From a virus, in the IMG/VR virus record IMGVR_UViG_3300007708_000012, positions 1 through 33,817 of that record: a stretch of 33,817 nucleotides of DNA. One strand, 5' to 3'. The position numbers and the translations under genes are program-made. The notes below the pieces were generated by a model, which saw nothing but the letters and a program-made list of their open reading frames with translations, had not been told where the DNA came from and searched no databases. Below, one piece after another: positions 2,931-31,189 of the stretch. Each line of letters begins with the position of its first letter. The first letter of the stretch is position 1.

Positions 2931-3341
2931 ATGAGCGTCTACACCTCAAAACACAAAGGCGTGATCCAATCGTTCGCAGGAGCGGGCAACGGCACATTCT
3001 GTGTCGGTGGATGGCAATATTACGAAGCCAATCTCCCAACGGGTGAAGTGGATGCCAACGGGACGCCGCTTTACGCGATCTACGATATTCCGCAATCCAC
3101 AGTGATGTATGCGGTTGACGACACGGGCGACGGTTGCGAGATCAGGATGACACCCGCAAGCTATAACCTTTCATCAGCCAACGCCACGCTGAATAACGTC
3201 ACAGTCTGGTCAGCCAATTCAATCCTGACTCGCGACTATGCCGACGGGCGTTACGCCCCAATCTCAGCCACCATTGACGGCGGCACAGCCTTGACCACCA
3301 ACACAGGCTCTTACGACGGCGGGAGTGCAACCTCAAACTAA
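2931..3341 (+). CDS. Tail fibre module protein of unknown fold
   Basis: 136 residues, ATG start one base after the preceding stop; its TAA overlaps the next ATG (TAATG). It is Gly/Ser/Thr/Asn-rich, lacks charge clusters and has a C-terminal 'RDYADGRYAPIS' followed by a glycine-rich tail. The 'DGRYAP' element matches the 'DKLYAP' end of the previous gene and is common in phage fibre junctions. Probably a structural component of the fibre or a linker to it. No enzymatic motif is seen. Confidence 0.6.
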   Translation: MSVYTSKHKGVIQSFAGAGNGTFCVGGWQYYEANLPTGEVDANGTPLYAIYDIPQSTVMYAVDDTGDGCEIRMTPASYNLSSANATLNNVTVWSANSILTRDYADGRYAPISATIDGGTALTTNTGSYDGGSATSN

Positions 3342-3895
3342 TGGCACTAATTCAAGTCAGACGCGACACCGCCGCAGCATGGACATCCGCCAACACCACA
3401 CTGGCATCCGGTGAAATCGGCTTTGAAATTGACACCGGCAAATACAAAATTGGCACTGGCCCGGCATGGTCGGCACTCGGCTACGCAGCCGCGAAAGCCT
3501 ACAGCGACCTGACGGGGCCGCAGAATCTGCTCGACACGGAACTGATTCGGGCTAAACTTCGGGACTATTCAGAGACCATCTCCAGCCCCGCGATCACATC
3601 CGGCACGCTCACGCTCAATCTCGAAACATCCAATATCTTCACGGTCAGCCTCAACGCAGCGATCACTACCATAAACATCACAAACGTCCCTGCAAGCGGT
3701 TCCGGTGCTTCATTCACTTTGATCTTTACCGCAGACGGAACGCCACGTTCAGTGACTTGGCCAGCGGCTATCAAGTGGGCGGGTGGCACGGCTCCAACGC
3801 TGACATCGACTTCTGGCAAGATCGACACGTTTGCATTCTTTTCGAGCGATGGTGGGACAAGCTGGACGGGTTACGTGGGAGGGCAGAATTTTTAA
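3341..3895 (+). CDS. Tail fibre protein with Mtd-N/hyaluronidase-type N-terminal module
   Basis: 184 residues, coupled to its neighbours by TAATG overlaps at both ends. Residues 1-48 (R-R-D-T-A-A-A-W near position 7, 'LASGEIGFE-D-TGKYKIGTG' at 21-40) form the short repeat-like module found at the N-terminus of many phage fibres and of the major tropism determinant. There it attaches the fibre to the tail. The rest is Thr/Ser-rich beta sequence ending in aromatic 'SWTGYVGGQNF'. Likely part of the adsorption apparatus with the LamG protein downstream. Confidence 0.75.
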   Translation: MALIQVRRDTAAAWTSANTTLASGEIGFEIDTGKYKIGTGPAWSALGYAAAKAYSDLTGPQNLLDTELIRAKLRDYSETISSPAITSGTLTLNLETSNIFTVSLNAAITTINITNVPASGSGASFTLIFTADGTPRSVTWPAAIKWAGGTAPTLTSTSGKIDTFAFFSSDGGTSWTGYVGGQNF

Positions 3896-5247
3896 TGCTC
3901 TCAAATATCATCAGGAATACCACAAAGACGGCAACGGGCGACCCATACTATTCTAACGTCTCTCTGCTCCTGCACATGGATGGGGCTAATGGATCGACCA
4001 CGTTCACGGATAGCAGTTTAAATGCACTGGCGGTGACTCCAGTCGGTAACGCCCAAATATCCACAACGCAGAGCAAGTATGGTGGAGCGAGCGGGTATTT
4101 TGATGGGTCGGGTGACTATCTTGATACTTCAGGTACAGGCATTGCAACAGCGTTCGGGACAGGCGATTTTACGATTGAGTTCTGGTATTACCCGTTAACG
4201 GTAAGCGTACAGCAAAATCTTGTCGATAAAATCGGTTCGGCTTCAAATGCAATTTACATGTCATCAGCAGGTGTTTTAAAGTATTATGTTGGTGCAGACA
4301 GGATCACTGGTTCAACCTTATCGGCAAACACTTGGTATCACATCGCTTTAGTCCGATATTCAGGCACAACCAAGCTGTATGTGAACGGCGTCCAGAGCGG
4401 GGCAAGTTACGATGACACAAACAATTACGCTCTGAATACTGGTAGTCCAAGAATTGGTGCAGCATTTAACAACACTGTCTCTGTAAATGGCTACATCGAC
4501 GATTTCCGCATCTCCCGATTCGCTCGCTACGTCTCCAATTTCACGCCTCCCACAGCAGCATTGCCAACAACCGCATCCTCTACGGTGGCCGACCCTTACT
4601 ACGATTACACTTCGCTCCTGCTGCACATGGATGGCACGAATGGATCGACCAACTTTGTGGATTCTGGGCCGAATGCGATGGCGATAAGCAGGTCTGGAAC
4701 CCCAACTATTTCAACAACCCAGAGTAAGTTTGGCGAGGCTAGCGGATTTTTTGATGGTACGGCAGGCTATATTTTCCCACCTACAACTGCTGCGTTTAGC
4801 TTTGGCACAGCCGATTTTACAATCGAATCATGGGTATACCCAACGCGATCAGCCAGCGGAAATTTAGGTATCTATGCAATTAGTGCTGGGGGAGGCGCGG
4901 TTGCAAAGTTTGTAGTGTTTTTGGATACGCTCACTCCTAACTGCCACTTCTTTGGACTCACCAACGGCAACAACATCTACACCAAGGCCACTTCGGCTGT
5001 TGCTGTGAATCAGTGGTCACACATCGCTTTTGTGCGTAGCGGAACGACTTGGACTTGGTACATCAATGGAGTTGCATCTGGTTCTGGTACGAATAGCACA
5101 AACATCGGTTTCACGACGCAACCAATCTACATTGGCTATGGCGGCCAAGAATTCTTCAATTATTTCCAAGGCTACATCGACGACCTCCGCATCACCAAAT
5201 ACGCTCGCACAATCACCGTACCAACAGCCCCGTACCCCAACTATTGA
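3895..5247 (+). CDS. Receptor-binding protein with two tandem LamG-like domains
   Basis: 450 residues; the ATG at 3895 overlaps the upstream TAA, and I prefer it to the longer in-frame start at 3757. Two concanavalin/LamG-type jelly-roll domains follow one another. The first begins near residue 16 (D-P-Y-Y...S-L-L-L-H-M-D-G) and the second near residue 231 with almost the same motif. Each contains 'FGTGDFTIE-W-Y/V-P' or equivalent, a 'W-x-H-I-A-x-V-R' strand, 'Y-x-N-G-V-x-S-G' and an ending 'GYIDD-R-I-x-R/K-A-R'. LamG domains of this type bind glycans or proteins and are common in phage receptor-binding proteins. The two copies are also similar at DNA level, indicating internal duplication. 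Likely recognises a surface carbohydrate of the host. Confidence 0.85.
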   Translation: MLSNIIRNTTKTATGDPYYSNVSLLLHMDGANGSTTFTDSSLNALAVTPVGNAQISTTQSKYGGASGYFDGSGDYLDTSGTGIATAFGTGDFTIEFWYYPLTVSVQQNLVDKIGSASNAIYMSSAGVLKYYVGADRITGSTLSANTWYHIALVRYSGTTKLYVNGVQSGASYDDTNNYALNTGSPRIGAAFNNTVSVNGYIDDFRISRFARYVSNFTPPTAALPTTASSTVADPYYDYTSLLLHMDGTNGSTNFVDSGPNAMAISRSGTPTISTTQSKFGEASGFFDGTAGYIFPPTTAAFSFGTADFTIESWVYPTRSASGNLGIYAISAGGGAVAKFVVFLDTLTPNCHFFGLTNGNNIYTKATSAVAVNQWSHIAFVRSGTTWTWYINGVASGSGTNSTNIGFTTQPIYIGYGGQEFFNYFQGYIDDLRITKYARTITVPTAPYPNY

Positions 5248-5255
5248 GGCTCTAG

Positions 5256-5810
5256 ATGCAATTCTGCCAAGTCAAAAACGGTCAAATCAGCCCACCTCAA
5301 GTGTTGCCAACGACCTTCGCCAACGTCAGCAATTTCCACACGCTGGATACTGACATCCTCACGCAATACGGGTTCTACCCTTACACGCCTTCGGTCAAGC
5401 CGACAATCAATCCAGCCACAACTCGACTGGATCAGAAATTGCAACTGGTAGGCGTGAAGGTCACCGAAACATGGACTGTGGTCACGCTCACGCCCGATGA
5501 GCAAATGGGCTATCTAATCTCGCAAAAGGTGATGCTGAAGCAACTCTTAGATCAGCACATGGACGCCCAGGTTGCACCCCGTGACTTCGACTCTATCCTG
5601 ACGGCGATCACATGGTCAGACAGCACCGTTCCACAGTGGGCAGCAGACGGGACCGCAGCCAAGACCTTCCGTGAACAGTGCTACGCCGTTGCCTATAAGA
5701 TCGAAACGGACGTTCTGGCAGGACTTCGCACTGTTCCAACACCCGCCCAATTCACATCTGAAATGCCCGTATTGTGGGCGATACCATCAAGCGCGAACGG
5801 AACATCATGA
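5256..5810 (+). CDS. Probable tail fibre assembly/chaperone-like protein
   Basis: 184 residues following the LamG gene; GAGG upstream of the ATG is a plausible ribosome site. The C-terminal half is helical with a 'FREQCYAVAYKIETDVLAG' segment near residue 143-161, in the style of the small proteins with a helical C-terminus that follow fibre genes (tail fibre assembly or DUF4376-like). Its TGA overlaps the ATG of the next gene (ATGA). I assign the role mostly from position directly after receptor-binding genes and from the helical pattern. Confidence 0.55.
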   Translation: MQFCQVKNGQISPPQVLPTTFANVSNFHTLDTDILTQYGFYPYTPSVKPTINPATTRLDQKLQLVGVKVTETWTVVTLTPDEQMGYLISQKVMLKQLLDQHMDAQVAPRDFDSILTAITWSDSTVPQWAADGTAAKTFREQCYAVAYKIETDVLAGLRTVPTPAQFTSEMPVLWAIPSSANGTS

Positions 5811-6325
5811 AAAAGTTGCTGCTCCTGCTATTTCTGGCACTGCCGATACAAGGTTCGGAGATACTATTTGACAACCTCGCCGATCCGATCACGGGGCTTG
5901 TCTATACAGGCAAGGACCAGTGGATATATCAGGCATTCAATTCTGGCGACTCCACCGAGCTTTGGGATTACAGATTAAATATTTACAAGCCAGCCGGATT
6001 CACGGGGAACCTGTACCTGACCTTTTACGATGTCGTGGCTCAAAAGCCTGTCGATTGGTGGATGACCGAGATGCGACTTGAATACACTCCATCCGACCAA
6101 GTGACCCTAATTGGGTTCTCTAACATACCATCTTTCCACCTCGACATCCCGATGGTTCCGCACACGACCTATTACCTTGGTATATCAGCAGATAACCCAA
6201 TTGCTTGGGCGCAGAACACGACAGGCTTGTCGCTCCAGATCACTGGAAATACTGTACCAGAACCTCAAACGTGGATATTGGGAATTCTGTCAGCAATGGC
6301 AATCCTGATAGGTCGATTCATCTGA
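5807..6325 (+). CDS. Secreted protein with PEP-CTERM sorting signal
   Basis: 172 residues from the ATG that overlaps the upstream stop (ATGA). Residues 1-16 form a clear signal peptide (MKK then a Leu/Phe run, cleavage plausible near PIQG-S). The mature part is beta-rich with many aromatic residues. The C-terminus has all three parts of a PEP-CTERM signal: V150-P-E-P153, a hydrophobic span 155-168, and a basic residue R170 just before the end. In bacteria such signals direct proteins to an exosortase for cleavage and surface or matrix attachment. The phage has no visible exosortase, so a host enzyme would be needed. Function unknown; it could be a lysogenic-conversion or exclusion factor at the cell surface, or a domesticated host gene. 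Recognition of the signal is confident; the role is open. Confidence 0.85.
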   Translation: MKKLLLLLFLALPIQGSEILFDNLADPITGLVYTGKDQWIYQAFNSGDSTELWDYRLNIYKPAGFTGNLYLTFYDVVAQKPVDWWMTEMRLEYTPSDQVTLIGFSNIPSFHLDIPMVPHTTYYLGISADNPIAWAQNTTGLSLQITGNTVPEPQTWILGILSAMAILIGRFI

Positions 6326-6387: not shown

Positions 6388-6516
6388 ATGGATCGAGTGT
6401 CCGCAAAAGATGCTCTCGTATGGGCTGAGGAACAGGGCTTTGTGGTCAACGGTCGCATCACAGATGAAGGCCGAGGCTATTTTCTGGCTAATCAGCACAA
6501 AAAGGTCACAGAATGA
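6388..6516 (+). CDS. Small hypothetical protein
   Basis: 42 residues (MDRVSAKDAL..., ending HKKVTE). The ATG lies downstream of a short gap after the PEP-CTERM gene, and its TGA overlaps the ATG of the nuclease gene (ATGA), which argues that the frame is real. A longer frame exists upstream but runs inside the preceding gene. The sequence looks like a single small helical unit with a 'GRITDEGRGYF' turn, reminiscent of a winged-helix fragment, but I cannot assign a family. Confidence 0.5.
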   Translation: MDRVSAKDALVWAEEQGFVVNGRITDEGRGYFLANQHKKVTE

Positions 6517-6866
6517 ACCCAGTCGTCAACTACACCTACGCAGCCAGGCTCGAACGCATCATCGACGGCGACACCGCTGTCCTGCTGATTGACTTGGGTT
6601 TTGACGTGCGAACACGGCAGCATGTGCGGTTCAAAGGCTATAACGCCCCAGAGTTACGCAAAGCTCACGCAGCAGACGGCATACGAGCAAAAGCTGAACT
6701 GGAAACACTGCTCTCAGGCAAACAGCTGGTAATTACAACCACGCAGGTCTTCCAGCAGACATTTGCTCGCTATCTCGCAGAAGTATACGTAACAAATGCT
6801 TCAGGAATCGTATCCGTATCAGAACATATGACCAAGTCTGGATTCAACGTACCACAAGGAGATTGA
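6513..6866 (+). CDS. Staphylococcal-type (thermonuclease, SNase) nuclease
   Basis: 117 residues. It hydrolyses DNA or RNA phosphodiesters in a Ca-dependent manner if active. The SNase fold signature is present: 'IIDGDTA' (D18, D20), R39 followed eight residues later by E47 in 'R-F-K-G-Y-N-A-P-E', and R86 in 'FARYLAEVYV'. These correspond to the catalytic R35, E43 and R87 of the staphylococcal enzyme. The residue matching D40 is Asn. There is no signal peptide, so export would depend on lysis or on another route. Start is coupled (ATGA) to the gene before, and the next gene begins two bases after its stop. Possible roles are host DNA degradation or DNA clearance at lysis. Confidence 0.85.
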   Translation: MNPVVNYTYAARLERIIDGDTAVLLIDLGFDVRTRQHVRFKGYNAPELRKAHAADGIRAKAELETLLSGKQLVITTTQVFQQTFARYLAEVYVTNASGIVSVSEHMTKSGFNVPQGD

Positions 6867-6867
6867 C

Positions 6868-7128
6868 ATGGGGAACGACAAGCTCAGGGCAATGCCAAGT
6901 CTTGAAGGCTACATCAACGTGGAAGAGCTTAAGCTCACGCTGCTGAAAGCCTTTGGCACTGGCTCAATGTCTGCTCTGCTGCTGACTGTTCTGGCATTCC
7001 TGCTCGAAAATATCAGTAAAATCTATGTTGGCCCAGCGTCAGCAATCATCATTTCAATTGCCTCAGCGATAGCTGCCATGCTGAAGGCACGCCAGGTGGG
7101 AATGAAGTATTTACAGGAAGGCCGCTAA
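6868..7128 (+). CDS. Small membrane protein, holin candidate
   Basis: 86 residues, with AAGGAG just upstream of the ATG. A soluble N-terminus (1-30) is followed by two hydrophobic segments, about 34-50 ('MSALLLTVLAFLLEN') and 55-72 ('VGPASAIIISIASAIAAML'), and a short basic tail. Size and topology fit a class II-type holin. The location, next to other small membrane proteins and a protease, fits a lysis cassette. Several neighbours could equally be the holin, so this is a candidate only. Confidence 0.6.
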   Translation: MGNDKLRAMPSLEGYINVEELKLTLLKAFGTGSMSALLLTVLAFLLENISKIYVGPASAIIISIASAIAAMLKARQVGMKYLQEGR

Positions 7129-7155: not shown

Positions 7156-7482
7156 GTGTCCGACCGCACCGCACACCTAAACCGCAAGATGTTGCCGATG
7201 CAATTGCCCGACCCCACATCGTTCGTACTCCTGAATCCCAGTGTGGGATGGGTGATCGGCCCACTTGCTGTCGCGACAAACTGGGTGGGGGCAAACCTGG
7301 TGAACATCGATCTAAGCTGGGCCGAATTGCTGTACAGCGTTGCGGCTGTCATCTATGCGTCTGCGGCATTAGTGACGAGCTTAAGGGTGAAAAAGCACCC
7401 TTCCCCAAAATCCAAGTCCTCATCGGCTGAAAAAGACAAGACAATCGACCTCAAGGAACCTCCTCTGTCCCAAGAAGGGTAA
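7156..7482 (+). CDS. Small membrane protein (second holin/antiholin candidate)
   Basis: 108 residues from GTG at 7156. A weakly hydrophobic segment (about 29-46) and a stronger membrane helix (about 54-75, 'WAELLYSVAAVIYASAALVTSL') are followed by a highly charged C-terminal tail rich in Lys, Ser, Glu and Pro. Alternative starts are the ATGs at 7189 and 7198. Promoter at 7110-7139 lies directly upstream, so the 5' leader would be very short. Topology resembles phage holins, or a membrane partner of one. No family recognised. Confidence 0.6.
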   Translation: MSDRTAHLNRKMLPMQLPDPTSFVLLNPSVGWVIGPLAVATNWVGANLVNIDLSWAELLYSVAAVIYASAALVTSLRVKKHPSPKSKSSSAEKDKTIDLKEPPLSQEG

Positions 7483-7550: not shown

Positions 7551-7760
7551 ATGTTTGCTGAAGCCCTTGTCTTCGTCGCTGCTTCCTGCCCAGGCAACCA
7601 GTGCAATACCATCGCATCTACTGTACAGGTTCAGGTTCAACAGGCTTTCGAGCCTAAAATCATCTACGTTGAATCGATCTCAAAGCCCCTGTTTCGCCCA
7701 ATATTCAAAAAGCGTTCTCCACAATTCATTTATATGTGTCCCAACGGGAAGTGCAAATAA
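7551..7760 (+). CDS. Small secreted protein with paired C-x4-C motifs
   Basis: 69 residues. The start has AAAGGTG upstream and its TAA overlaps the next ATG (TAATG), which supports this frame over an overlapping one at 7555-7863. The N-terminus is hydrophobic (MFAEALVFVAAS) and looks like a short export signal or anchor. Two matching motifs bracket the protein: C13-P-G-N-Q-C18 near the N-terminus and C63-P-N-G-K-C68 at the very C-terminus, suggesting two small disulfide or metal-binding loops. No family known to me. Confidence 0.6.
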   Translation: MFAEALVFVAASCPGNQCNTIASTVQVQVQQAFEPKIIYVESISKPLFRPIFKKRSPQFIYMCPNGKCK

Positions 7761-7942
7761 TGTTTACCACACTGATCATACGCCTGATGACTCCACTGAT
7801 CGTGGAAGTGATCAAAGAATTGCTCCAACAGCTTGCCAGCGGAGAAGTTGTGAGCCTCAATGAAGAGACCGTCAAAGCTGCAATGATGCAGCGTGAAGAC
7901 TCAATCTCCAGAGCCGTTGCCATAGCCACTGCGGGCGTATGA
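7760..7942 (+). CDS. Small hypothetical protein, possibly membrane-associated
   Basis: 60 residues from the ATG overlapping the upstream stop. The N-terminal 15 residues are hydrophobic with helical amphipathic character (MFTTLIIRLMTPLIVEVIKELL); the remainder is a charged helix. Its TGA overlaps the next ATG (ATGA). It belongs to the same translationally coupled chain of small genes. Function unknown. Confidence 0.55.
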   Translation: MFTTLIIRLMTPLIVEVIKELLQQLASGEVVSLNEETVKAAMMQREDSISRAVAIATAGV

Positions 7943-8061
7943 TCCTCCTCTACATCACGTTCGGAATTTTTATCGGCTTGTCCTTGTGTCTCTACTGGTC
8001 CATGGATGACGACTGGTACGAGAAGTGGGAACACCAGGATAAGCCGGAAGGGTGGGATTGA
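7939..8061 (+). CDS. Very small single-span membrane protein
   Basis: 40 residues (MILLYITFGIFIGLSLCLYW then an acidic/aromatic tail DDDWYEKWEHQDKPEGWD). One N-terminal membrane helix and a short polar tail. The ATG overlaps the previous stop (ATGA), and the next gene starts one base after its stop. This tight coupling is the main support for a gene this short. It could be a lysis accessory, but nothing more can be said from sequence. Confidence 0.55.
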   Translation: MILLYITFGIFIGLSLCLYWSMDDDWYEKWEHQDKPEGWD

Positions 8062-8062
8062 G

Positions 8063-8566
8063 ATGCTTCTAGCTGCACTGATACTACTTGGGCAAACCTC
8101 GATCCCCTCTTTCAATGTGCCTCCGGTTCAGGAGGTTTCCATTGTTTTTGTGGATCGCGGTAGAACTTACGTTATCGGCAAGGATTCTGGGACAGTCAAG
8201 GTTTACGACGGTCAGGAATCTCCCGACTCCGAGAGGAAACCTGTTCCACCGCACCTGACTGGCCTTGCAAACGAGTTCTGGTCCATCGTGATCATTACTG
8301 TGGCCGACAAGGCAAAACGCAAGCAAGGGGCATTAGCCCTCGACAAATCGATACAGATCACTGAAGCACAGGCTGGAGCGTTGGGCCTGGACATGGCCCA
8401 GATCATCGGAATATTGGCGAAGAGTGCTGAAGATAATGGGATTCGGACTTATTGGTCTGGCGTGGCTCTTGGCGATCTGCTTGCAAGCAAGGGATACAAG
8501 ACACGCGAAGAACTGCTGGCAGCGTTAGCTGAAATCAAAAAGGCCTGTGAGGAGTTGAGCAAATAA
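8063..8566 (+). CDS. Secreted or anchored hypothetical protein
   Basis: 167 residues. The first 12 residues (MLLAALILLGQT) form a short signal-like segment. The middle contains a beta region ('VSIVFVDRGRTYVIGKDSGTVKVYDG') followed by an acidic/proline linker and a helical C-terminal half ending in 'LLAALAEIKKACEELSK'. Stop overlaps the next start (TAATG). A periplasmic role in the lysis/accessory cassette is inferred from the signal and context. No family assigned. Confidence 0.6.
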   Translation: MLLAALILLGQTSIPSFNVPPVQEVSIVFVDRGRTYVIGKDSGTVKVYDGQESPDSERKPVPPHLTGLANEFWSIVIITVADKAKRKQGALALDKSIQITEAQAGALGLDMAQIIGILAKSAEDNGIRTYWSGVALGDLLASKGYKTREELLAALAEIKKACEELSK

Positions 8567-9405
8567 TGCGAATACTCAATCTAGGTGCTGGAGTTCAGTC
8601 AACCACGCTCGCTTTGATGGCAGAAACTGGCGAGATTCCTAAGTACGATTACGCTGTTTTTGCTGATGTTCAATCCGAGCCTAAATCCGTGTATTCGCAC
8701 TTGGAATGGCTAAAAAGCCAACTGAGCTATCCAGTGATAGTCAGGAGCCGAGGCAGTTTAATTGATAACATCAAAAACGGCATAAACGGGGATGGTCACA
8801 GGTATATCTCAATTCCAGCATTCACGGGCGACGAAGGTAAGCTGGGTGGTGTCGTTAGAAGGCAATGCACGAATGAGTACAAAATCGTTGTCGTTGAGGA
8901 AGCAATTCGCCGTGACATTTTGAATTTACCAAAGTGGGGCAGAATTCCCAAAGACGTAGAGATAATCCAAAGTTTCGGCCTGTCTTATGATGAACAAAAG
9001 CGAGTCCTCAGCGTTCAAAGAAACCATGCCCATAAGCCATGGAAAGTCGAATTCCCGCTCTACGAACTCGAAATGAGCCGATCCGACTGCGTCAAGTGGC
9101 TTGAAGATTACGGGGTTCCGCACGTTACTCCACGTTCAGCATGCACGTTCTGCCCTTATCACAGCAATGTGGAGTGGCAGCGGATGAAGACCGAAGATCC
9201 CGAGTCATGGAATCAGGCTGTAGAAGTTGACCGCTTGCTGCGAGATAAAACAATGAGATGCAATCAAGGTATGCGTGACCAGCTTTGGATACATAGGTAC
9301 TGCAAGCCTTTAGACCAGATCGATTTCGAGAAAGACACAAGATTTGCGGCAGGACAATCAGCTTTCTCGTTTGCATCTGAATGTGAAGGGATGTGTGGCG
9401 TATGA
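8566..9405 (+). CDS. PAPS-reductase-like / adenine nucleotide alpha-hydrolase family enzyme
   Basis: 279 residues. The N-terminus carries the PP-loop-type motif L6-G-A-G-V-Q-S-T-T-L-A, typical of ATP-pyrophosphatase or PAPS reductase-like enzymes that activate a substrate by adenylation. Conserved cysteines follow: C101 in 'RRQCTNEYK', the C193-T-F-C196 pair in 'SACTFCPYH', and C273/C277 in the C-terminal 'ECEGMCGV'. This spacing suggests an Fe-S cluster or sulfur relay, as in DndC-like or thiolation enzymes. Many phages carry homologues of unknown role. It sits between a secreted protein and the papain-like protease, coupled at both ends, so it is expressed with late genes. Possible roles are nucleic acid modification or sulfur metabolism; no dnd partner genes are visible. 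Confidence 0.8.
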   Translation: MRILNLGAGVQSTTLALMAETGEIPKYDYAVFADVQSEPKSVYSHLEWLKSQLSYPVIVRSRGSLIDNIKNGINGDGHRYISIPAFTGDEGKLGGVVRRQCTNEYKIVVVEEAIRRDILNLPKWGRIPKDVEIIQSFGLSYDEQKRVLSVQRNHAHKPWKVEFPLYELEMSRSDCVKWLEDYGVPHVTPRSACTFCPYHSNVEWQRMKTEDPESWNQAVEVDRLLRDKTMRCNQGMRDQLWIHRYCKPLDQIDFEKDTRFAAGQSAFSFASECEGMCGV

Positions 9406-10310
9406 CACCTTACGATGCCCTCAACTTCGGCTTCGGCTGGTACAAAGATCCTCAGGAAGTCGCCCGAATCGTCTCTGAAAACGGAATTCAAGGCTTTTCC
9501 GCGACTGCTCCCCACCTCATGGACTCCACTCCCACTGGGCCTGTCATACTGACAAAGTACATGGACATGGTCTGGGGCAAAGACAAATGGATCTACAATC
9601 AAGGCTCATGCGGCTCATGCGTTGCCAACGGCGCTGGAATGGCAGCAGAAATCCTTGTAGCCGAAGACATAACAGATAACGGTGCTGAGAACCCAGGTCG
9701 CCTCGACTGCATGTCCATCTACTGGGGTAGCCGTGTCGAAATCGGTGGTGGAAGACTTTCAGGGGAAGGCTCTGTCGGAGCCTGGGCAGCTCAGTATTTG
9801 CAGAAATATGGGGTTCTCCCTCGTAAGAAATATGCATCCGTAGATCTTACAAAATACAGTGCCGCCCTCTGCTGCTCAAGTTATGCCCGTAAAGGTGTTC
9901 CAGACGACCTCGAACCAACGGCAAAGCTCCACCCAATCAAGTCTTACGCCAAGGTTGACTCTTGGGACGAACTCGTCAGTGCAATCACCTCCGGCTATCC
10001 CGTCACAGTCGCTTCCGACCAGGGGTTCAGCTACAAGCGTGATGCAAACGGGTTCTCCGCTCCTAAAGGCTCATGGTCGCATCAGCAGATCATTATCGGC
10101 ATTGACCTCTCAGACGAGTCCGCAGTGGTCCTCAACTCTTGGGGTAACGACTGGATCTCAGGCCCAAAACCCGACTGGATGCCCGCTGGAAGCTATAAGA
10201 TCCGCAAGAAAACTGCGGAAAGCATGCTTAAAGAGGGCGATTCCTGGGCCTTCAGCAATCTGGCTGGCTGGACACGCAAAGAAATCCCCTGGGCGAAACT
10301 CAATTGGTAG
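9402..10310 (+). CDS. Papain-like (C1A-fold) cysteine protease
   Basis: 302 residues from the ATG that overlaps the upstream stop (ATGA). The complete papain active site is visible: Q67 (oxyanion hole) and C73 in 'N-Q-G-S-C-G-S-C', H227 in 'SWSHQQIIIGI', and N245 in 'VVLNSWGNDW'. There is no signal peptide and no obvious autoinhibitory prodomain; about 60 residues precede the active-site loop. The residue after C73 is Val rather than the usual Trp. Papain-type proteases are unusual in phage genomes. Its position among membrane/secreted small genes makes it a candidate lysis enzyme or envelope-protein protease; a virion maturation role is less likely because a separate prohead protease is present. 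Confidence 0.9.
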   Translation: MTPYDALNFGFGWYKDPQEVARIVSENGIQGFSATAPHLMDSTPTGPVILTKYMDMVWGKDKWIYNQGSCGSCVANGAGMAAEILVAEDITDNGAENPGRLDCMSIYWGSRVEIGGGRLSGEGSVGAWAAQYLQKYGVLPRKKYASVDLTKYSAALCCSSYARKGVPDDLEPTAKLHPIKSYAKVDSWDELVSAITSGYPVTVASDQGFSYKRDANGFSAPKGSWSHQQIIIGIDLSDESAVVLNSWGNDWISGPKPDWMPAGSYKIRKKTAESMLKEGDSWAFSNLAGWTRKEIPWAKLNW

Positions 10311-10420
10311 AGATCCTCTGGGTTCTGGTACTCATGGGATTCGGGTTGTATCTGGTTTTGAACATCATCGCTCTGGTTGTCGGGACCATAAAATATGTTG
10401 CACGATCCAGACGACGATAA
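10304..10420 (+). CDS. Possible very small membrane protein
   Basis: 38 residues from TTG, overlapping the end of the protease gene by 7 bases and the start of the next gene by 26. The protein is nearly all hydrophobic (VEILWVLVLMGFGLYLVLNIIALVVG) with a basic end (ARSRRR), that is, one membrane helix with a positive cytosolic tail. It fills the 84-bp gap between its neighbours, but the weak start and small size make it uncertain. Confidence 0.4.
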   Translation: MVEILWVLVLMGFGLYLVLNIIALVVGTIKYVARSRRR

Positions 10421-10703
10421 CGAAACCCTTAAAAAGCCAGAAATCGACGATATCCTGCTTGATTTCAACTCCCAGGAAAACGAAGGCTTCCAATCCTGCA
10501 TCCTCCATCATTCCCGATTGCAATCGCTTCTGGGTGTCTGGTTGCACGCATCTCAACTATCCCTCAGCCCAGATGACGACCTGGTCATGGACGAACTTCG
10601 CCAGGCATTGAAACTCCTTCTATCCGACCAGACTCACGATAGGTATCTCAAGACTGTCAGCGTATTTCGGGCAGCAGATTACGCACCGGAGGAGAAAAAA
10701 TAA
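10395..10703 (+). CDS. Small acidic hypothetical protein
   Basis: 102 residues. Strongly acidic N-terminus (D/E-rich residues 4-30), then predicted helices. No membrane segment, signal or metal motif. It is the last gene of the accessory cassette; 72 bp with a putative promoter separate it from the prohead protease. Function unknown. Confidence 0.55.
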   Translation: MLHDPDDDNETLKKPEIDDILLDFNSQENEGFQSCILHHSRLQSLLGVWLHASQLSLSPDDDLVMDELRQALKLLLSDQTHDRYLKTVSVFRAADYAPEEKK

Positions 10704-10775: not shown

Positions 10776-11537
10776 TTGTCTGAACCGGAATTAAGCCTGG
10801 TTTACAAGCTGGCCCCAGCTCCGAGAGTCGATAATTCCGATTCCGGCGGGTTTGCTGGCTACGCATCGACATTTCATTTCCTTGATTATCATGGCGACAT
10901 TATCGCCCCAGGTGCTTATAAGGCAGACATTCAAAGGTTCCTCACCAAAGGGTTTATCGGTGGAGTGAATCACGACCATGCGAACCCTATCGGTAAGCCT
11001 GTCGAACTCTTTGAAGATGCCAAAGGCTTATTCCTCGAAGCCATTTTAGTAGACACAGTCAAAGCACAGGAAGACCGCAAGCTCATCGCTTCAGGGGTCG
11101 TTAAAGAGTTGTCCGTAGGGATTATCCCCTTGCAAGTCAAGCGGATGACTAAGAAAGAGACTCTTGACTATTGGAAAAAGGCTGGATACAGCCCATCCGA
11201 AGAAGAGTTGATGCGATCCGAACCAGGCTCACGACTGATCAAACGGGCTAAACTTCTGGAAATTTCCCCAGTCGCGCTCGGAGCAAACGAACAAACCTCC
11301 ATTTCGTCTTATAAATCAGGGCGAAAGATCTCGCAAACAACCGCAGATTTACTGGCCCAGATCTGCACTCAGGTCAAAGCCTCGTACGAAATGCTGGAAA
11401 CACTTCTGGTCGATGCCGGAATCAAATCTGACTCGGAAGAAGATGTCGCCGAAGCTCCGGCAGAGGCACAAACTGCGGCTGAAGATCCACTACTTAACGA
11501 CCTACTCGAAGCGTTTCGCGCCTTTATCAAGGAGTAA
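10776..11537 (+). CDS. Prohead (capsid maturation) serine protease, HK97 gp4-like
   Basis: 253 residues from a TTG start with GAGG 6-9 bases upstream. It cleaves the capsid protein delta domain and/or scaffold during head maturation. Family motifs: 'GYASTF...D-x-H-G-D-I-I-x-P-G-A' (27-47), H66/H68 in 'NHDHANPIGK', S113 in 'KELSVGI', and 'EISPVALGANEQTSI' (162-176). These are the expected His-Ser-Glu/acid catalytic region of U35/S78-type proteases. The C-terminal 60 residues are acidic and Ala-rich, probably a scaffold-like tail. Directly followed by the capsid gene. Confidence 0.92.
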   Translation: MSEPELSLVYKLAPAPRVDNSDSGGFAGYASTFHFLDYHGDIIAPGAYKADIQRFLTKGFIGGVNHDHANPIGKPVELFEDAKGLFLEAILVDTVKAQEDRKLIASGVVKELSVGIIPLQVKRMTKKETLDYWKKAGYSPSEEELMRSEPGSRLIKRAKLLEISPVALGANEQTSISSYKSGRKISQTTADLLAQICTQVKASYEMLETLLVDAGIKSDSEEDVAEAPAEAQTAAEDPLLNDLLEAFRAFIKE

Positions 11538-30160: not shown

Positions 30161-31047
30161 CAAAGTCCTCTTATTGCCGTCACTGCGGCTTCAACCGATT
30201 CAAAAGCACGGAGTACAACCAATGCACCCCAAAAGTCCATAGATCCACCACTTGTCCACACCACAGACCCATCAATTCGTACAGACGCGCTGGGCCGACT
30301 GTCATCAGGGTCACCTGGTCGATAACACGGTATCCATCCCGCCTGATTCGGCCTTCCAGCCAGCACCAGACCATAACTCTGAAGTATCGAAAGTCGTTCA
30401 GGGATCTCATCGGATGGAGCAAGAGATCGAGACGCAGAAAGTGTCAATGATCCTGCAAAGGGTTGTCGTTTCTGAGTCGTTTTGTCTTCGATCTCACTGA
30501 GTAGCCAGTGCGGCGCGATGCCACATTTACCCGTGAGCGGGTTGACCGATCCGGTCCATCTATACATTTTCCCGCTGCCGTACTGAGTAGGAGGACAGGT
30601 AGCAAGCCTTCGATCCCCAAGGACGAGGACTTCTTCATGCTTACCAGTTCCCTTCCACAGGCACACGTTAGGGATTGGGCGTTTGTACCAGTGAGGTAGC
30701 CTGAACCAGATGTGCAGACCACCCCCGCCAGTAGATACTTGCCAAGTTCGCGGTAAAGCTGGTCGAGTTTGAAAGAATTCACGGATCTTATCCTGCGGAC
30801 CATCCAGGTCCAGTACGAGTAAACGTGATGCCAGCCCTGGCAATGCAGCGATATTCTTGGGTGATAAATCTTTCATTGCTGACAGTGGAAAACCGCTCCA
30901 GTATTGCGAAGTTTGAATCAATGGCATTTTCTGTTCCGAGGACATCGGGACAGTGTTTATTCCATGATCGTTAAGAACTTTGACCCAACCGAGTGTGAGC
31001 AGGTTTTTTCCCACCGTTTGGCCTACCCATAATCTCGGATCGAGCAA
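30160..31047 (-). CDS. Prim-pol-type primase (bifunctional primase/polymerase N-terminal family)
   Basis: Up to 295 residues; the start is ambiguous (ATG 31047 or GTG 31014), and both overlap csrA. Motifs: 'G-I-N-T-V-P...K-M-P-L-I' at the N-terminus, 'LLVLDLDGP' (metal-binding D-x-D) near residue 87, and 'STGGGGLHIWFRLP' near 105-118 (GGxH). These match prim-pol domains that synthesise primers on ssDNA. A C-terminal 'CYRPGDPDDSRPSASVRI' region resembles the substrate-like half of helicase-primases, but no helicase follows in the same protein. With the separate SF2 helicase it would form the replication start module. Confidence 0.8.
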   Translation of the reverse strand: MLDPRLWVGQTVGKNLLTLGWVKVLNDHGINTVPMSSEQKMPLIQTSQYWSGFPLSAMKDLSPKNIAALPGLASRLLVLDLDGPQDKIREFFQTRPALPRTWQVSTGGGGLHIWFRLPHWYKRPIPNVCLWKGTGKHEEVLVLGDRRLATCPPTQYGSGKMYRWTGSVNPLTGKCGIAPHWLLSEIEDKTTQKRQPFAGSLTLSASRSLAPSDEIPERLSILQSYGLVLAGRPNQAGWIPCYRPGDPDDSRPSASVRIDGSVVWTSGGSMDFWGALVVLRAFESVEAAVTAIRGL

Positions 31048-31189
31048 TCTGGATATCTAGGCCAGCTTCGATTCCCACCCTCATTTTATTGACCCCGCAC
31101 TTTTCAACATAGGTGAACTTAGCCAGGAAAACACCATCGGAGTCAGTGAGTACAACGGATTCGCCTGGGTTACGTGTGACAACGAGCAT
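30971..31189 (-). CDS. csrA: CsrA/RsmA-type RNA-binding regulator
   Basis: 72 residues with a strong AGGAGG site upstream. Conserved CsrA features: 'MLVVTRNPGESVVL' (R6 and the beta-1 strand), 'MRVGIEAGLDIQIARSEI' with R50 equivalent to the RNA-binding R44 of E. coli CsrA. Family members bind GGA motifs in 5' leaders and change translation or stability; many regulate flagella, biofilm and carbon storage. A phage copy could retune host mRNAs after infection or control phage genes. The C-terminal end overlaps the primase gene, so the two are translated together. Confidence 0.9.
   Translation of the reverse strand: MLVVTRNPGESVVLTDSDGVFLAKFTYVEKCGVNKMRVGIEAGLDIQIARSEIMGRPNGGKKPAHTRLGQSS

Follow-up and report, generated by a model that had tools for sequence, protein, structure and literature searches.

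A xylellain-type papain with a conserved putative secreted partner is a candidate lysis peptidase in a siphovirus-type phage family

We identified a papain-like cysteine protease gene in a conserved module of the window (the whole stretch of DNA analysed, a linear virus record of 33.8 kb, siphovirus type with an integrase), where it occupies the slot in which phages usually carry the enzyme that bursts the host. Computation gave its fold, its active site, the selection acting on it, the conservation of the module, its partnership with a small upstream gene (F0), and the absence of a recognised peptidoglycan (PG) hydrolase. On balance we lean towards reading the papain as an active lysis (egress) peptidase, which would be released by a holin, cut the host envelope, and act in the endolysin's place; it is possibly the sole lytic enzyme. 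The sequence-only reading had proposed that it could be an endolysin or envelope-protein protease acting on planctomycetes: the lysis or envelope part now has comparative support (two genomes with no recognised PG hydrolase, the module, and related papains in actinophages), but the planctomycete host does not.

The papain gene, its active site and its fold

The papain ORF (9402-10310, plus strand; 302 aa) begins with an ATG at 9402; an in-frame GTG lies at 9393. It matches Pfam Peptidase_C1 at 26.1 bits (cut-off 20.7), and its best PHROG is 16701 ("peptidase", E 2e-9, residues 54-253). Its catalytic residues, read earlier from the letters as Q67, C73, H227 and N245, are indeed at these positions and are unchanged across 11 aligned sequences, down to ∼43% identity; C70, C157, C158, and W247 are also invariant in this alignment. 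The dN/dS of the papain among close relatives is 0.026-0.062, indicating strong purifying selection, so the ORF is a real gene; together with the invariant catalytic residues, a dN/dS of 0.03-0.06 predicts that the enzyme is kept active.

The AlphaFold2 model (pLDDT 72, pTM 0.80) appears good enough for naming the fold. It matches 204 PDB chains at E <= 0.001, with many C1A chains at Z 15-17, and the top structural match is xylellain (PDB 3ois; Z 20.4 over 247 residues, Foldseek E 2e-10). Pfam, fold, and dN/dS therefore agree with the protease call and its coordinates, and the comparison with C1A peptidases that had been proposed as a check gave a papain fold with xylellain closest. By its sequence, the protein is a member of the C1A papains, on a distant branch of PHROG 16701. 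We saw no transmembrane (TM) segment in it, its N-terminus is unlike a signal peptide, and it shows no PG-binding domain of its own. Two of the Foldseek matches of the model among viral proteins bear the names "Peptidoglycan binding-like" and "N acetylmuramidase", which suggests that papain domains may occur in lysins.

Distribution and host

Searches of 2.9 million IMG/VR contigs found the papain family in 28 contigs, most of them >92% identical to the window protein and the remainder down to 41%. The same protein has no relatives in INPHARED phages (tblastn, E 1e-3), and GTDB genomes contain only distant C1A genes (24-30% identity), so the papain search yielded neither a prophage nor a host. 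A second phage papain (L030, 928-2106, minus strand), used as a query, matched 27 of 50,697 INPHARED phage records; this papain is of the classical kind, starts with a signal-peptide-like stretch, has an extra C-terminal domain, and is located after fibre-type genes. With these counts, the earlier remark that papain-type enzymes are rare in phages is a fair one.

Searches of INPHARED with the major capsid protein (MCP), portal, and ThyX returned only matches of <60% identity from mixed hosts, which neither support nor refute a planctomycete host; we found nothing else in its favour, whether a prophage, an isolate, or evidence of another kind, and the suggestion is not supported. One protein of the window (5807-6325) has a signal-like N-terminus and a C-terminal VPEP-TM-basic tail that looks like a PEP-CTERM sorting signal (weak Pfam match), and has no counterpart in the relatives compared; it would be a hint that the host is diderm and has an exosortase, a combination compatible with several phyla. 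The window also contains a small ORF resembling CsrA-type regulators (30971-31189), and Pfam detects CsrA in two relatives (G005 and G006).

Gene layout of the window and the upstream cassette

According to Pfam and PHROGs, the window is ordered as portal, fibres, prohead protease, HK97-type capsid, connectors, and tail genes, followed by a leftward replication block (RuvC-like resolvase, ThyX, helicase, and prim-pol) and a tyrosine-type integrase. No terminase, tRNA, or Rfam family was found in the window, and the promoter and terminator scans gave signal not above that of shuffles.

The papain module (all on the plus strand) is headed by tail-fibre genes with profile matches to Mtd_N and LamG, together with F10 (3341-5810). 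The cassette also includes an SNase-like nuclease (6513-6866; phrog_452, E 5e-23), whose version in G005 (L059, 4121-4573) has a signal-peptide-like start, suggesting that it may be exported there. Several small proteins are then encoded upstream of F0. F11 (6868-7128), with two TM segments, is the best holin candidate, based on its hydrophobic segments and its conservation down to 28% identity; F29 (7156-7482), with one TM segment and a charged C-terminal tail, is holin-like only by size and topology; and F46 (7939-8061) has one TM segment. Between F29 and F46 are a small protein with a C-P-x-G-x-C motif, having a counterpart in near relatives (7551-7760), and the small amphipathic F25 (7736-7942), which is matched by profile in most of the papain contigs extending far enough upstream. 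The genes for small membrane and secreted proteins that had been read near the papain are real and conserved; they lie upstream of it, and none of the cassette's TM proteins matches a holin family in Pfam or PHROGs. A relative of F11 was also found in a 10 kb fragment (L095, 6760-9335), followed by a second TM protein and a 591-aa protein, with neither F0 nor papain nearby. Fibre, holin, endolysin is a common gene order in siphophages, and the order seen here (fibre, small TM proteins, F0, papain) resembles it.

Downstream of the papain, a small ORF (10395-10703) that is kept in near relatives is located ahead of a dedicated prohead (head maturation) protease, distinct from the papain (10776-11537; phrog_80, E 2e-30).

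F0, a putative secreted partner

Immediate neighbourhood is where the module is most consistent: F0 (8063-8566), a putative secreted protein, is encoded ahead of the papain in each of the 27 contigs with upstream sequence, with a single gene in between in five of them and a 4-nt overlap of the F0 and papain genes in 22. Gene calling in six further long records and one short one (L025) found both F0 and papain in all seven, and a search with F0 matched papain contigs only. The F0 protein (167 aa in the window) consists of a hydrophobic N-terminus, a short beta part, and a helical bundle (model pLDDT 78); it has no recognised fold and no significant sequence or PDB structure match.

The gene in between varies. 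Four contigs (L010, L012, L021, and L022) have a gap of ∼830 nt between F0 and papain, which in L012 and the window is a PAPS-reductase-like gene (8566-9405 in the window; phrog_424, E 2e-39), and L022 is 100% identical to the window; in L025, the intervening gene is instead DNA methyltransferase-like. The PAPS-reductase-like gene is located exactly between F0 and papain in some near-identical phages and missing in others: it is present in the window and G003 and absent from G001 and G002.

The module moves relative to the capsid genes

We compared the position of the module among the relatives. It lies between the portal and the prohead protease in the window, between the prohead protease and the capsid in G007, in the portal/capsid region interval in G006 (whose capsid genes do not cluster with those of the window), and ahead of the tail genes in G009. 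The papain shares 68, 49, and 43% of positions with its counterparts in G005, G007, and G010, respectively, and the capsid proteins of the window and these three relatives have only 18-25% of positions in common. The papain is therefore better conserved than the capsid protein, indicating that it travels with the fibres and membrane genes rather than with the capsid. The varying position, the unrelated capsids, and the separate prohead protease in the window together make a head-maturation role unlikely. The papain, with its C1A family and variable position, does not itself resemble a prohead or head-maturation protease; virion maturation, which the sequence-only reading had named as the finding that would overturn its proposal, is thereby weakened. 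G006 (L061/L062), which has the papain module in common with the window and the capsid genes not, also encodes a histone-deacetylase-family protein (Pfam E 1e-35). MCP relatives without papain were considered for comparison as well, and were set aside as distant phages with no comparable cassette.

Searches for peptidoglycan hydrolases

Pfam, PHROGs, and six-frame family searches all failed to detect a PG hydrolase in the window, in agreement with the earlier observation that no lysozyme, amidase, or endopeptidase is seen there. Since the window is a linear fragment in which no terminase was found, this absence alone proves little; two relatives with overlapping ends close the gap. An exact overlap of the two ends is the usual sign of a complete circular assembly, and G005 and G006 have exact terminal overlaps of 127 and 99 nt, respectively, so by their sequences both are probably complete circular genomes. 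The families listed for their ORFs include capsid, portal, terminase, integrase, replication genes, and papain. Pfam scans of selected ORFs found no PG hydrolase in either genome among the best 25 of 27 families in G005 and 25 of 29 in G006 (one long ORF in each was covered by the six-frame searches only), which leaves the papain as the sole recognised envelope-hydrolase candidate within those families. A PG hydrolase in the missing part of the genome would have counted against the lysis proposal; none is recognised in these two probably complete relatives.

Eight hydrolase families (Amidase_2, SLT, Phage_lysozyme, M23, CHAP, M15_3, NlpC/P60, and Amidase_3) were searched for in all six frames of 15 records; none scored over the cut-off, while the controls were detected. 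A GH19 search also gave nothing, but it had no working positive control. An SLT match in G007 was dismissed (11 bits, below the cut-off, in a 56-aa frame). A hydrolase of unfamiliar fold, beyond the reach of Pfam, may be present among the unassigned ORFs.

Proposed role and alternatives

We infer late expression, release by a holin, an envelope substrate, and lysis as the further parts of the explanation we lean towards. The papain, having no signal peptide, would be synthesised late and in the cytoplasm; a small TM protein encoded just upstream would let it through or past the inner membrane; and it would then cleave one of the proteins or peptides that make up the host envelope. F0 may act together with the papain, either in the periplasm or in the envelope, for instance as its docking partner or activator or as a spanin-like part, and the papain would replace the endolysin in these phages. 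Thus, these uncultured phages may open their hosts by digesting protein or peptide parts of the envelope. Going further, a tailed phage lineage might lyse its hosts without any PG hydrolase; the papain, aided by F0, would then be a "proteolysin" taking apart an envelope layer made of protein or crosslinked by peptides. We consider this stronger version somewhat unlikely.

The papain could instead be an accessory lysis protease that strips surface or wall-bound proteins, in which case the actual killing would fall to a single-gene lysis protein or to a PG hydrolase that went unrecognised. Papains do co-exist with lysin A genes in Gordonia and Arthrobacter phages, and family assignments are lacking for many ORFs in the complete relatives. 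But no other lytic-type enzyme was recognised in those relatives (among the best 25 of 27 and 25 of 29 families), the genes directly around the papain are conserved, and the eight hydrolase families are absent although the controls worked, so an accessory role seems unlikely to us. The papain gene lies inside the morphogenesis cluster, which also fits a role linked to the virion: it might mature fibres encoded upstream or other virion proteins, or be carried by the virion and clear surface proteins at adsorption. Tail-fibre genes do head the module in most genomes, and in G007 and G010 the papain is directly ahead of the capsid gene. The window has its own prohead protease, however, the module shifts in position and accompanies unrelated capsid genes in G006, and the conserved genes nearest to the papain encode F0, putatively secreted, and small TM proteins, all of which make a virion-linked protease quite unlikely. 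The slot next to the papain evidently collects cargo, with accessory genes (PAPS-reductase-like, methyltransferase) adjoining it, as might be expected if the protease served host takeover, superinfection exclusion, or anti-defence, inside the cell or at its membrane and unrelated to lysis. But papain and F0 occur together in all family members found and are not variable cargo, and the relatives in PHROG 16701 adjoin lysins and holins; we regard such a role as very unlikely.

To our knowledge, nearly all lysis described so far for tailed double-stranded DNA phages requires a PG hydrolase. The papain as the only recognisable candidate would point to hosts whose envelope integrity is protein-based, or alternatively to a papain that cleaves PG peptides. 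If the lysis reading is true, it would also assign a function to the papain genes that recur in actinophage lysis cassettes.

Comparison with known systems

The closest phage parallels to the window papain are those of PHROG 16701, to which the two papains tested (from Cafasso and Mufasa8) belong with E 5e-60 and 2e-64. The papains of Cafasso (gp30), Mareelih (gp109), GMA2 (Orf38), and Mufasa8 (gp26) have the same active-site motifs; like the window protein, these actinophage papains are C1A enzymes with no signal peptide, and they adjoin lysis genes. The isolated Gordonia phages Cafasso and Mareelih have the order lysin A (C39), lysin A (amidase), small ORF, papain, and holin; in the Arthrobacter phage Mufasa8, likewise an isolate, the papain comes shortly after lysin A, with a small ORF and a membrane protein in between; and in GMA2 it is annotated as a putative lysin ahead of the holin, an annotation that rests on cd02619 (PMC4524720). 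The link to lysis genes is not universal, since the papain of Streptomyces phage Sycamore is outside the lysis region. The actinophage carriers also encode lysin A (and lysin B in Cafasso), so in Gordonia and Arthrobacter phages the papain is at most accessory; in contrast, no lysin gene was recognised beside the papain in the window or its relatives, and this lack of a recognisable classical lysin is the departure from the known phage papains. The window family is also longer (302 aa), with added N- and C-terminal parts ending in LNW and an extra segment around the invariant C157-C158. No lone C1A endolysin was described in the literature searched, which was largely open-access.

Outside phages, xylellain, the best structural match, is a short bacterial C1A peptidase, cellular and with no phage or lysis context, although a transfer of xylellain-type genes to Caudoviricetes is reported (PMC10380794). 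Cwp84 of Clostridioides difficile (PDB 4ci7) shares the C1A fold (Z 16.2) and acts on a cell-surface protein, but it is a cellular S-layer-associated protease outside phage lysis. CHAP and NlpC/P60 endolysins belong to the papain-like superfamily and cut PG peptides (PMC10318531), but they are other families than the window papain, and their profiles match nothing in these phages. Finally, mycobacteriophage lysins contain papain- or C39-type domains (PMC3314691): the N5 domain of lysin A is a papain-fold cysteine peptidase in an endolysin, as proposed here, but it is a C39-like domain of a multidomain lysin, whereas the window protein is a free-standing C1A enzyme.
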